Assembly (NCBI GenBank): GCA_020833225.1
Contig: JAJHQS010000013.1
Coordinates: 1 to 32,980, forward strand
DNA: 32,980 nt
Direction of reading: 5' to 3'
Source: Desulfurococcaceae archaeon
GTDB taxonomy: Archaea; Thermoproteota; Thermoprotei_A; Sulfolobales; Desulfurococcaceae
The position numbers were made by a program, and so were the translations under genes. The notes beneath the pieces were generated by a model, which worked only from the letters and a program-made list of their open reading frames with translations, was not told where the DNA came from and made no database searches. Of this stretch, positions 1,568 to 5,996 are shown piece by piece; position 1 is the first letter of the stretch; each line of letters starts with the position of its first letter.

Positions 1568-1855
<288 letters not shown>

Positions 1856-2185
1856 CCGTCGTGAGACAGGTCGGGCTCTACCCGCGGGGGGCGTGGGCCG
1901 CCTGAGGGGAAGCTGCCCTCAGTACGAGAGGAACGGGGCGGCGCGGCCTCTAGTTTACCAGTTGTCCTGGTGGGCAGTGCTGGGCAGCCACGCCGTAGGG
2001 GGTAACCGCTGAAAGCATCTAAGCGGGAACCCCTCCCCGAGACGAGGCGGCCTGCCGTAGAGGCCTTGTGCCTCTGCGGCGTGGGCTCCCGTAGAAGACG
2101 GGGTTGATGGGGCGGGGGTGTGAGCTCCGAGGGGTTTTCCCCGAGGGGTTCAGCCCGCCGCTCCCAATCGCCCAAAGCTACAGCT

Positions 2186-2234
2186 CACCTGGGGGCGGGG
2201 TGTATGTTTACTACTTGCCTTACAGACCCAGGTG
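2186..2234 (+). other. Inverted repeat after the 23S 3' end (processing stem or terminator)
   Basis: CACCTGGG (2186-2193) is matched by CCCAGGTG (2227-2234), an 8-bp perfect stem with a 33-nt loop right at the inferred 23S 3' end. It could be part of the rRNA processing structure or help termination. The 5' side of the gene is outside the window, so the usual long processing stem cannot be tested. Confidence 0.35.
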
Positions 2235-2305
2235 TAATCCTGGTTTAGAGCTCCTCTACAGCGCTCATTATCCTTAAGTCTTATTGTGAATTTTGGTGTT
2301 TGATA

Positions 2306-3160
2306 TTGGGGGTTAAGGCTTACTTAGAGCTTATTAGGCCTCCTAATTCACTTATGAGTGGTTTAGGAGCTGTTCTCGCAATAGTTGCTTTTTTAGACTA
2401 TAATGTCTCATGGGATCACTTGTTAATACTCCTCATAGCTTTTACAACAGGATTTACATTGACAGCTAGTTCAATGATCATAAATGACATAGTAGATGTA
2501 GAAGTAGACAAGGTCAATAAACCATGGAAACCCCTACCACGCGGAGAAGCATCAGCAAAAACAGCCCTAATAACCGCAACAACACTAACAACACTCGGAG
2601 TACTAGTAAACACAATAACTAACAATTACAAACTCATAATAACAACACTAATCTACACGACAACAGGCATAACATACAACTACCTTAGAAAACACTGGTG
2701 GAGCCACACACTAGTAGCATTTTCAACAACAGGCCCCATAATATACGGCTATATAGCTTCAAATCAACCACAACACAAACTCCAACTAGCAGTAACCTTC
2801 ACACTAATAGTATTCCTAGCAACACTAGGAAGAGAAATACTCAAAGCAATACAAGACTACAGAGGAGATTTAGAGAGAGGATATTCAACAATAGCAACAA
2901 AATACGGATTAAACACAGCACTTAAAACAATGATTACAACAGGACTATTAGCAACAACACTAGCAATAACCTCAACAATAATAATCAACACTGGAATACT
3001 ATACAAAACACTAATAACCATAACAACAATAATTTATATGCAAAGCCTCATAGAAGCATACAAAAACAACACAAAGCCAAAAATACTAGAAAAATCCAGG
3101 AAGAAAACACTAATAGCAATGAGCATAGGACTAATAGCATTCTGGCTCAGCGGCATTTAA
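2306..3160 (+). CDS. UbiA-family prenyltransferase (digeranylgeranylglyceryl phosphate synthase-like)
   Basis: Integral membrane prenyltransferase of 284 residues. The first aspartate-rich motif is NDIVDVEVD (N60, D61, D64, D68) followed by KVNKPWKPLPRG. The second is DYRGD (D184, D188) followed by LERGYSTIATKYG. About eight hydrophobic segments are visible. In archaea this family member usually adds the second geranylgeranyl chain to geranylgeranylglyceryl phosphate in ether-lipid synthesis. That substrate is inferred from family and length, not shown. Start: TTG 2306 lies 7 nt after GGTG (2295-2298); TTG 2300 is the alternative. After about codon 70 the coding strand becomes very rich in A and C and the protein rich in Thr, Asn, Ile and Lys, unlike its own N-terminus. 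Its 3' end overlaps the convergent PAP2 gene by 14 bp. Confidence 0.85.
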   Translation: MGVKAYLELIRPPNSLMSGLGAVLAIVAFLDYNVSWDHLLILLIAFTTGFTLTASSMIINDIVDVEVDKVNKPWKPLPRGEASAKTALITATTLTTLGVLVNTITNNYKLIITTLIYTTTGITYNYLRKHWWSHTLVAFSTTGPIIYGYIASNQPQHKLQLAVTFTLIVFLATLGREILKAIQDYRGDLERGYSTIATKYGLNTALKTMITTGLLATTLAITSTIIINTGILYKTLITITTIIYMQSLIEAYKNNTKPKILEKSRKKTLIAMSIGLIAFWLSGI

Positions 3161-3995
3161 CAACACAGAACACATTAATAAACAATGGAAGCATTAAAAC
3201 AAAAAACACAACAAGAGAGAAAACAAAAACCCTCAAAAATAAACCAAAACCCAGGGTTAAAAAGTAAACTAGGAAAACAATACCCGAGGAAACAATAAAT
3301 AAAAACAACCGCAACCAAACATTAAAAACAATACTTTTCAAATAACCCCTAAAAAACAACAATAACAAAAACACAACTAAACTAGTAGCAATAAGAACAC
3401 TACAAGTACTAATAGGACCACCAAACAATAAAACACTAATTAGCGATAACATTAAAGATAAAATAGAACACAAAATAAAAACCAAATAACCCAAAAAACT
3501 CTTCAACAACAACACCACTAAGCCCACTATCAATCCAAATACAACACCACACACAACATCAACAGGATAATGAGCCCTCAAATAAAGCCTACTCAGCGAA
3601 ATACCAGTTATAAGCACAATAGAAACAAGATAAAAACACCTAACACAAATAACACTTGGAAAAACAAACCAAAAACTCGTAGAAACCTGAGAATGCCCAC
3701 TAGGAAAACCAGGCCCCTCAACAGGAACAAGAGGATTAAGAGGCCTAGGCAAATTTAACCAATACTTTAAAAAAACATTGAAAGAACCTGAAAAAACAAC
3801 TGATAAAACCAATAATAACCCCCCAACCGGATCAGGGTGTAAATAGTAAATTAAAAGCGATAAAGCCAAGTAAAATTCCTCATCACCAAGAAAACTCCAC
3901 ACACGCCACAACAACACATTACTCGCGAAAAAACTAACTAGAAGAAACAACAATAGAGTAGAAAAAACAATAAAACACAAACGCCTCAAAAACAC
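3147..3995 (-). CDS. PAP2-family membrane phosphatase
   Basis: Polytopic membrane protein of 282 residues with the three phosphatidic-acid-phosphatase type 2 signatures: KYWLNLPRP (K77, R84, P85), PSGH (98-101) and SRLYLRAHYPVD (R136, catalytic H142, D146). The remainder is hydrophobic, with several more transmembrane segments C-terminal to the catalytic core that make it longer than minimal PAP2 proteins. Likely role: dephosphorylation of a lipid or isoprenoid phosphate or pyrophosphate at the membrane. The substrate is unknown. Adjacency to the UbiA-family gene fits isoprenoid or lipid metabolism but the genes are convergent, not co-transcribed. The start is GTG 3995 within a GGGGGTG motif, or TTG 3989. 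The coding strand is extremely G/T-rich, continuing the compositional island of the neighbour. Confidence 0.88.
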   Translation of the reverse strand: MFLRRLCFIVFSTLLLFLLVSFFASNVLLWRVWSFLGDEEFYLALSLLIYYLHPDPVGGLLLVLSVVFSGSFNVFLKYWLNLPRPLNPLVPVEGPGFPSGHSQVSTSFWFVFPSVICVRCFYLVSIVLITGISLSRLYLRAHYPVDVVCGVVFGLIVGLVVLLLKSFLGYLVFILCSILSLMLSLISVLLFGGPISTCSVLIATSLVVFLLLLFFRGYLKSIVFNVWLRLFLFIVSSGIVFLVYFLTLGFGLFLRVFVFSLVVFFVLMLPLFINVFCVVKCR

Positions 3996-4037
3996 CCCCT
4001 AAAATAATTAAAGGGGGAGACAATAAATATTAAACAT

Positions 4038-4087
4038 GTGATGACACGACGGTAGTCTGAAAAGTGAAGAGCGTTTCCCCAGGCTGA
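4038..4087 (+). ncRNA. C/D-box sRNA (predicted 23S 2'-O-methylation guide)
   Basis: All four boxes are present in order: C GTGATGA 4038-4044, D' CTGA 4057-4060, C' GTGAAGA 4064-4070, D CTGA 4084-4087. The guides are 12 nt (4045-4056) and 13 nt (4071-4083), with a 3-nt D'-C' spacer, all typical for archaea. The D' guide CACGACGGT is perfectly complementary to ACCGUCGUG in the 23S gene of this window. The +5 rule then points to the first C, E. coli position about 2590, exactly at the splice junction of intron B. The D guide pairs with the conserved archaeal 16S stretch CCUGGGGA (8 pairs plus a wobble), which I recall rather than see here. The gene lies in the 205-bp gap between PAP2 and the ferritin-like gene. 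Confidence 0.88.
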
Positions 4088-4200
4088 AATCACACACCCC
4101 TCTTTAGTAAGTTAGCAATGTACCTAGAAGAAACAAAAATAATTAATTTAATATTAAGACTTATATGTTTAAATAACAATAACCCTCTGGGTGTGTTGTT

Positions 4201-4668
4201 TTGAGCATAATAGATAAAGTAATTGAGTACTCTAAATTAGAGAGGAAATATGCTGAGGAATTAAAGACTATGGCTGAATCTATAAAACACCCAGTACTCA
4301 GAGCATTATTCCTAAGCATATCACAAGACTCTCTAAAACATAGTTTAATGTATGAGGCAATAACACAACTACTAGAGCAAACACAACCATTTATCACCAT
4401 AGAAGAACTCAGAAAAATAACTACTACTATTGAAAAACACATTGAAACAGAGATAAAAATGCTAGAAGAAGCTAAGAAAATATTTTCAACATCACAAGAC
4501 CCAAGAGTAAAGTTAATAACAGCAGCAATTATAAATGACGAGATCAATCATCACATTCTACTCCTAGATATTAAGAAGAGGATAGCTGAAGAAGAAGCAC
4601 TCACAGAGGAGAAGATATGGGACATGATCTGGAAAGAGAGCCCCTGGCATGGAGCACCAGGAGGCTAA
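4201..4668 (+). CDS. Ferritin-like (rubrerythrin-type four-helix) protein
   Basis: Soluble, highly charged, all-helical 155-residue protein. Carboxylate/histidine pairs in four helices resemble the ferritin-like superfamily: E19/E20 in helix 1, D43 and H47 in helix 2, E79-E84 in helix 3 and a canonical ExxH at E114-H117 in helix 4. The helix 2 motif is offset (DSLKH rather than ExxH), so a complete di-iron site is not certain. There is no rubredoxin domain, so it is not a full rubrerythrin. A possible role is iron storage or peroxide handling; this is inference. Start TTG 4201 is supported by GGGTG at 4189-4193 (7-nt spacing), and an AT-rich TATA-like stretch lies at 4160-4175. It appears to be transcribed alone. 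Confidence 0.6.
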   Translation: MSIIDKVIEYSKLERKYAEELKTMAESIKHPVLRALFLSISQDSLKHSLMYEAITQLLEQTQPFITIEELRKITTTIEKHIETEIKMLEEAKKIFSTSQDPRVKLITAAIINDEINHHILLLDIKKRIAEEEALTEEKIWDMIWKESPWHGAPGG

Positions 4669-4797
4669 TTATAGCTCAATAAACACTAACAACACAAATA
4701 TCACGTGAGAAATACTCATAAGAGCTATTAATATCCTCAAATTACTGTTACTAGTACTCAGCTACTTATACCATTACCATAGATTAGAGGTTAAATA

Positions 4798-4872
4798 TGG
4801 GGCCGCGGGGATTTGAACCCCGGGTCACGGGGGCCCAAGCCCCGCATCCTAGCCAGGCTAGACGACGGCCCC
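4798..4872 (-). tRNA. tRNA-Pro(UGG)
   Basis: On the minus strand the sequence folds as a cloverleaf. The acceptor is GGGGCCG/CGGCCCC, the D arm is GUCU...GGAU, and the anticodon stem CGGGG/CCCCG has loop CUUGGGC (anticodon UGG). The T arm is CGGGG-UUCAAAU-CCCCG, and the discriminator is A (4798). CCA is not encoded and no intron is present. The flanks are AT-rich, with a possible TATA element around 4878-4890. The cognate prolyl-tRNA synthetase gene is also in this window (11771-13207) but not adjacent. Confidence 0.97.
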
Positions 4873-4914
4873 CATTAGAATTTTAATATTAATACACCTC
4901 TTTTAAAACACTTA

Positions 4915-5916
4915 TCACTCTTTAAAAATCTCCTTAGTCTTTAACTTATATAGTTCTATCGTCTTAGTTATCAATGGGTCTACACCTCTCAGCTCTGCTA
5001 AGAAGATGCTTGTAAGACCTCCTACTAGGCTCCCATATAGCAGTTTCTCCAATGTATTCTCTCCACGTAATTCAACTCTGTAGAAAGATTTTGTTACCTC
5101 ACTATAAATATCCCTCATAAACTCTACTAGTTTACAGCCAACAGCATTATCTGGATCTATAATCTCAAGGACGCAGTAATCTCTACGTAAGGGGGCCTCG
5201 TAGCCAACAATATCATTATGCATCCACTCGGGAGCAACATCAACCTTCACATGCAACTTACTATTCTCATTGAATTCATTTTTAAATCTAAGAGCTAAGA
5301 CGCCCATAGGTGTATGTGTAGCTATAATTACAAGTCTACCTGGAATAACACATTCACTATAAAGCCATTTTGCAAGTTTACTTGAAGACCCAAGAATAGA
5401 GCTCTTCACATCTTCAAGAAATACAACACTCTCCTCAGCTTCTCTAAGTGTTATAACACTATAACCACTAGTATCTAGTAAACCTAGAATACTATAGAGC
5501 ATTGAAGGTAAAGAAGCCCTTGGTACAATCCCACCTGGAACCTCAATATAGAGAACACCACGTCTCCAAGCCTCCTCCTTCAATACACCACCACTAGAAA
5601 CAACAACAACTCTAAGCTTAGACAATAAAGCGCTTTTAAAAGCCAATAGTGTTTCAAGAGTATTACCACTATAACTAATTAACAGAACTAAGCTGTCTTC
5701 ATCTACAAAGCGAGGCAAAATATAAGACTTCACAACATATACTGGTAGAGGACCACGCTCAGCAGCAAGCACTTGTAAGTAATCTCCAACAATACCACTA
5801 CCACCCATACCTACAACTACAACCTCGTCAAAAACACCTTCAACACGGTAAACACCCCACTTCTCTAACACACCCCTAATCATTTTAGGCCAAGACAAAT
5901 ACACTTCTCTCAGCAA
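4915..5916 (-). CDS. Bifunctional phosphoglucose/phosphomannose isomerase
   Basis: SIS-domain sugar isomerase of about 333 residues, matching the crenarchaeal PGI/PMI family. The N-terminal phosphosugar-binding loop is GMGGSGIVGD (about 36-45), and the second SIS signature is SYSGNTLET (about 81-89). Glu and His positions typical of the active site occur in FKNEFNENSK and PEWMHNDIVGYE. It interconverts glucose-6-phosphate, and in this family also mannose-6-phosphate, with fructose-6-phosphate in the cytoplasm. This feeds glycolysis and glycan synthesis. Two starts are possible: GTG 5925 sits inside GGGGTG, while TTG 5916 lies 6 nt after it and is preferred. It is divergent from the gene at 5997 with an 80-bp shared upstream region. 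Confidence 0.9.
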   Translation of the reverse strand: MLREVYLSWPKMIRGVLEKWGVYRVEGVFDEVVVVGMGGSGIVGDYLQVLAAERGPLPVYVVKSYILPRFVDEDSLVLLISYSGNTLETLLAFKSALLSKLRVVVVSSGGVLKEEAWRRGVLYIEVPGGIVPRASLPSMLYSILGLLDTSGYSVITLREAEESVVFLEDVKSSILGSSSKLAKWLYSECVIPGRLVIIATHTPMGVLALRFKNEFNENSKLHVKVDVAPEWMHNDIVGYEAPLRRDYCVLEIIDPDNAVGCKLVEFMRDIYSEVTKSFYRVELRGENTLEKLLYGSLVGGLTSIFLAELRGVDPLITKTIELYKLKTKEIFKE

Positions 5917-5996
5917 GTCACACACCCCGCGAACACATAAATATAATAATAGCTTAGAACCCTCTATAATTTAAATATAGCAGGAGAGTGTGTTTA

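Follow-up and report, generated by a model that had tools for sequence, protein, structure and literature searches.

The window, by which we mean the whole stretch of DNA analysed (32,980 nucleotides), belongs to a Desulfurococcaceae MAG whose closest named relatives are Desulfurococcaceae archaeon Bin S25 and Thermosphaera sp. It starts inside a 23S rRNA gene, which covers positions 1-2187 (Rfam LSU_rRNA_archaea). An intron (intron B) interrupts this gene, and a box C/D sRNA with a D' guide complementary to the 23S rRNA beside that intron lies downstream. The features are listed below in window positions, with rRNA nucleotides in E. coli numbering.

1592..1607, + strand: 5' half of the bulge-helix-bulge (BHB) motif, comprising outer UGG (1592-1594), central GUUU (1595-1598), bulge AGA (1599-1601) and inner CGCCGG (1602-1607)
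1601..1854, + strand: intron B, 254 nt, between G2588 and A2589, delimited by comparison with intronless relatives and by a canonical 3-4-3 BHB
1646..1792, + strand: putative LAGLIDADG-type homing endonuclease remnant inside intron B (IIGYILGDGRLG...), matching Pfam LAGLIDADG_2 with an E-value of 0.027, below the curated cut-off
1843..1858, + strand: 3' half of the BHB, comprising inner CCGGCG (1843-1848), central GAAC (1849-1852), bulge UAA (1853-1855) and outer CCG (1856-1858)
1855..1863, + strand: target of the D' guide in 23S rRNA (A2589-G2597), wholly in exon 2, with predicted methylation at C1856 (C2590)
4038..4087, + strand: box C/D sRNA, extending from the C box to the D box; its boxes were all read directly
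4038-4044, + strand: box C, GTGATGA, read directly
4045..4056, + strand: D' guide, CACGACGGTAGT, positions 4-12 pairing with A2589-G2597 and positions 1-3 unpaired
4057..4060, + strand: D' box, CTGA, read directly and aligned in 27 homologues
4064..4070, + strand: C' box, GTGAAGA, 3 nt past D', read directly and supported by the homologue alignment
4071..4083, + strand: D guide, GCGTTTCCCCAGG, whose sequence differs between lineages
4084-4087, + strand: D box, CTGA, read directly

Direct reading of positions 4038-4087 gave the complete order C, D', C', D, with a box C of the form RUGAUGA, a CUGA box D and internal D' and C' boxes, as expected of an archaeal C/D sRNA. The D' guide also has the archaeal form (10-12 nt, with the +5 nucleotide paired), nine nucleotides of its 12-nt spacer pairing perfectly with the target. 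Pairing between the ends of the sRNA (terminal stem) was weak, and its folding was no better than that of shuffled sequence (z-score 0.16). Poor folding relative to shuffled sequence is not unusual among C/D sRNAs. The source MAG (G000) has a rated completeness of 99.5% and contains neither a 16S rRNA gene nor the 5' half of 23S; targets of the D guide were therefore sought in the rRNA of G005 and G024. The best candidate from the same genus was a 9-nt match to GGGGAAACG in the rRNA of G005, the closest complete genome, which tentatively places the D guide target in the 5' part of 23S.

The guide was found throughout the order. A search for TGATGA-N(0-2)-ACGACGGT matched 77 of the 197 genomes covered, with a single copy in nearly every one; the reversed control pattern yielded 7 hits altogether. 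Exactly one nucleotide separates box C from ACGACGGT in all 73 distinct copies, and in 64 of these the fixed position of D', three nucleotides past ACGACGGT, is occupied by an NNGA box. As the spacing between box C and the core is constant and the D' place is fixed, C2590 stays the +5 target across the copies. Guide positions 4-11 are the searched core, while position 12 and positions 1-3 differ between genomes. Homologues of the sRNA in the same genus were detected with E-values of 1.7e-11 and 1.9e-11. A profile constructed from the sequences of 27 copies hit the sRNA with an E-value of 2.1e-12. It gave hits below 0.001 in 26 of the 30 genomes tested; these 30 had mostly been selected for the absence of the exact core. 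Weak profile matches in G003 and G011 (E-values of 0.008-0.03) were discounted, as they had no guide core. A few genomes beyond the order also carry the guide. Six loci of one family (L194 and L200-L204, family f6) have an altered layout between box C and ACGACGGT (e.g. GGATGACCGGACGACGGTCGC), which makes them a divergent form of the guide.

The order-wide recurrence and the constant spacing argue for a C/D guide family that is old and has been maintained. The weak terminal stem would fit if the sRNA were instead a decayed gene or a chance match with no function, but its C box, guide core and spacing are conserved across the order, about one copy is found per genome and both box pairs are intact. 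We consider a non-functional sRNA extremely improbable. The sRNA is a new, well-conserved member of the C/D guides, presumably transcribed and acting by the ordinary mechanism.

The target scan bore out the core of the original prediction, namely that the D' guide is a perfect 9-nt complement of the 23S gene (CACGACGGT against ACCGTCGTG at 1855-1863), and the three guide bases adjoining D' are indeed unpaired with the mature RNA. The +5 rule selects C1856, which the spacing to the E. coli sequence identifies as C2590, again as predicted. The proposed yeast equivalent is Cm2959, a position that is guided in yeast by snR73. This equivalence is correct, as the offset of 369 is the same as that between yeast Um2921 and E. 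coli Um2552 in the table of PMC11542601. The corresponding nucleotide is 2'-O-methylated in eukaryotes (yeast Cm2959, human Cm4536 and Arabidopsis Cm2960; PMC11542601). The window guide and the snR73 system are alike in addressing the same rRNA nucleotide by alignment (PMC11542601), and we do not assume homology of the guide RNAs. According to a review of archaeal rRNA-methylation C/D sRNAs (PMC7994747) and to their target maps (PMC4644070), these RNAs resemble the window sRNA in their consensus boxes, 12-nt guide and +5 rule, and also in targeting the peptidyl-transferase hot spot of domain V, with no essential difference. Neither paper names position 2590 in its main text. The guide described here adds an archaeal family of C/D guides, spread across the order, for a nucleotide of the peptidyl-transferase centre that is methylated in eukaryotes too.

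In relatives, the uninterrupted 23S site is GGGTTTAGACCGTCGTGAGACAG, which is split by 254 nt in the window. The site was found without an intron in 106 genomes and with an intron in only four (G000, G004, G142 and G179). Folding the precursors of these four revealed a common BHB with a 4-bp central helix, two 3-nt bulges and helices on both sides (3-4-3), in agreement with the canonical motif definition (PMC7714728). Its consensus consists of outer UGG/CCG, central GUUY/GRAC, bulges AGA and NAA, and inner YGYYGG/CCRRCG, and compensatory changes (C-G to U-A, U-G/C-G) keep the pairing. BHB splicing normally cuts each bulge between its second and third nucleotides. From the sequence by itself, three registers would be equivalent for intron B, while the BHB geometry predicts cuts at G1600^A1601 and A1854^A1855. 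The C selected by the +5 rule had been taken for the first nucleotide after intron B; this was wrong by one position, A2589 being the first and C2590 the second nucleotide of exon 2 in the BHB geometry. As the predicted BHB cut separates G2588 from A2589, the 9-nt target lies wholly in exon 2.

The endonuclease reading frame of intron B is broken and its domain match is weak; a LAGLIDADG relic would fit intron B being a mobile intron. The 23S introns of Desulfurococcus mobilis and Staphylothermus marinus (cited in PMC3608112) likewise have BHB junctions and lie in the conserved 23S core. They carry homing-endonuclease ORFs, whereas the reading frame of intron B is broken and its match weak. 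The introns of G142 and G179 (L085 and L086), genomes from another family of the order, occupy the same 23S position and measure 149 and 87 nt respectively. The window 23S gene has a second insertion at approximately 847-1260, apparently the intron A of the earlier annotation, flanked by complementary CCGCGG and holding a frame-broken LAGLIDADG_3-like reading frame (E-value of 0.0037, below the cut-off).

Neither the distribution nor the sequence of the guide follows the intron. Most carriers are intronless: among the 77 guide-bearing genomes, 45 have no intron at the site and two have one, the remaining 30 being without an assembled or matching site. Guide and intron therefore coincide in two genomes with exact matches, or in three if a weaker match is counted. 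This third genome is G179, in which the guide match is weak (E-value of 2.6e-4) yet ACGACGGT is correctly placed. In intron-bearing G142 (94% complete), the profile recovered no guide among the 150 of 296 first-look candidates that were scored. The ends of the guides, whose three bases beside D' are the ones that could sense the junction, are also common to both states: AGG is shared by intron-bearing G004 and intronless G007 (same genus), and CGC by intron-bearing G179 and intronless G176 (another genus). The A at guide position 3 of the window is present in 11 intronless genomes as well. The guide end of the window itself, AGT, recurs in G021 and G029, two genomes in which, as in G001 and G006, 23S is missing from the assembly. 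Guide and intron are thus distributed independently, and the comparison of relatives with and without intron B reveals no dependence of the guide on the intron. An intron-encoded C/D sRNA of archaeal pre-tRNA-Trp, sR50 (PMC7994747), resembles the window guide in having targets near a BHB-type intron. In sR50 the guide is the intron itself, while the window guide is a separate gene kept in intronless genomes.

We favour, with a probability of roughly 90%, a standard C/D guide for Cm2590 whose conserved target site has also received a mobile intron. In this reading 4038-4087 is a standard dual-guide archaeal box C/D sRNA that would assemble with L7Ae, Nop5 and fibrillarin, and its D' guide would direct 2'-O-methylation of C2590, a nucleotide of the peptidyl-transferase centre located at the base of helix 93. 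Since exon 2 holds the whole target, the same 9 nt would be available to the sRNP whether or not the RNA has been spliced. Intron B is a BHB intron whose homing-endonuclease relic has decayed, and it would have inserted sporadically at the same conserved sequence. The overlap between guide and intron would be a by-product, both elements targeting conserved rRNA.

The original prediction went further and proposed that the sRNP acts on, or binds better to, the precursor through pairing of all 12 guide bases with the intron end (one A bulged), linking intron B splicing to methylation. The energies agree with this in part. At 37 °C the bulged 12-base pairing is the best precursor duplex (-17.8 kcal/mol, compared to -16.8 kcal/mol with mature RNA), and in G004, too, the duplex of the guide with the genome's own precursor is more stable than that with mature RNA (-16.2 vs. 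-14.2 kcal/mol). At 75 and 85 °C, however, the bulged pairing is not the best duplex and the precursor gains only about 0.5 kcal/mol, without the bulge. The guide end of G004 is found in intronless G007 as well, so that the fit is independent of the intron, and the guide of intron-bearing G179 favours mature RNA by 3.6 kcal/mol at 37 °C, as does the commonest guide type (4.3 kcal/mol). Of 73 guides, 52 pair at positions 2 and 3 alike with A2587 and G2588 of mature exon 1, and none pairs at both positions with the intron end of the window. Random upstream sequences would permit a bulged 12-bp extension in about 5% of cases with Watson-Crick pairs and in 17% if G-U is allowed, and the extension is weak evidence for precursor pairing. 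Moreover, the intron bases in the 12-bp duplex (AC and UA) are part of the BHB central helix and bulge; the duplex and the splicing substrate are therefore mutually exclusive, and pairing would destroy the structure to be spliced. With the target in exon 2 and the guides of most relatives pairing across the mature junction, preferential action on the precursor is not supported. Nor is a link between splicing and methylation, given the 45 intronless carriers and the guide ends common to both states. We regard a guide coupled to splicing as very unlikely. By comparison of relatives, a guide target adjoining an rRNA intron need not mean coupling between guide and splicing.

The target overlaps the outer BHB helix at 1856-1858 (C2590-G2592, paired with 1592-1594) in all four intron-bearing genomes, and binding of the sRNP and of the splicing endonuclease could exclude each other, so that methylation would come strictly before or after splicing, as an incidental and not an evolved order. 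This outer helix is, however, merely 3 bp long, one of them U-G, and the guide has no adaptation to the presence of the intron; on balance such steric ordering seems unlikely. We find it doubtful, indeed quite improbable, that in intron-bearing strains the C2590 sRNP competes with the splicing endonuclease for C2590-G2592 and the guide serves as a checkpoint ordering methylation and intron removal.

The original prediction also remarked that the guide is encoded 2 kb away. In the family, the sRNA gene lies within approximately 3 kb of the 23S 3' end in 13 genomes of seven genera, far above chance, and in ten of these 13 it is on the opposite strand to 23S. The linkage occurs without the intron, and for this reason it is no argument that guide and splicing are coupled. 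It resembles a conserved gene order in which local inversions have taken place. The conserved neighbourhood (window positions 1857-5925, and loci L084, L087, L137, L141 and L183) comprises 23S, a UbiA prenyltransferase, a PAP2 phosphatase and the C/D sRNA. It also includes the gene at 4915-5925 on the - strand, which is probably phosphoglucose-isomerase-like.
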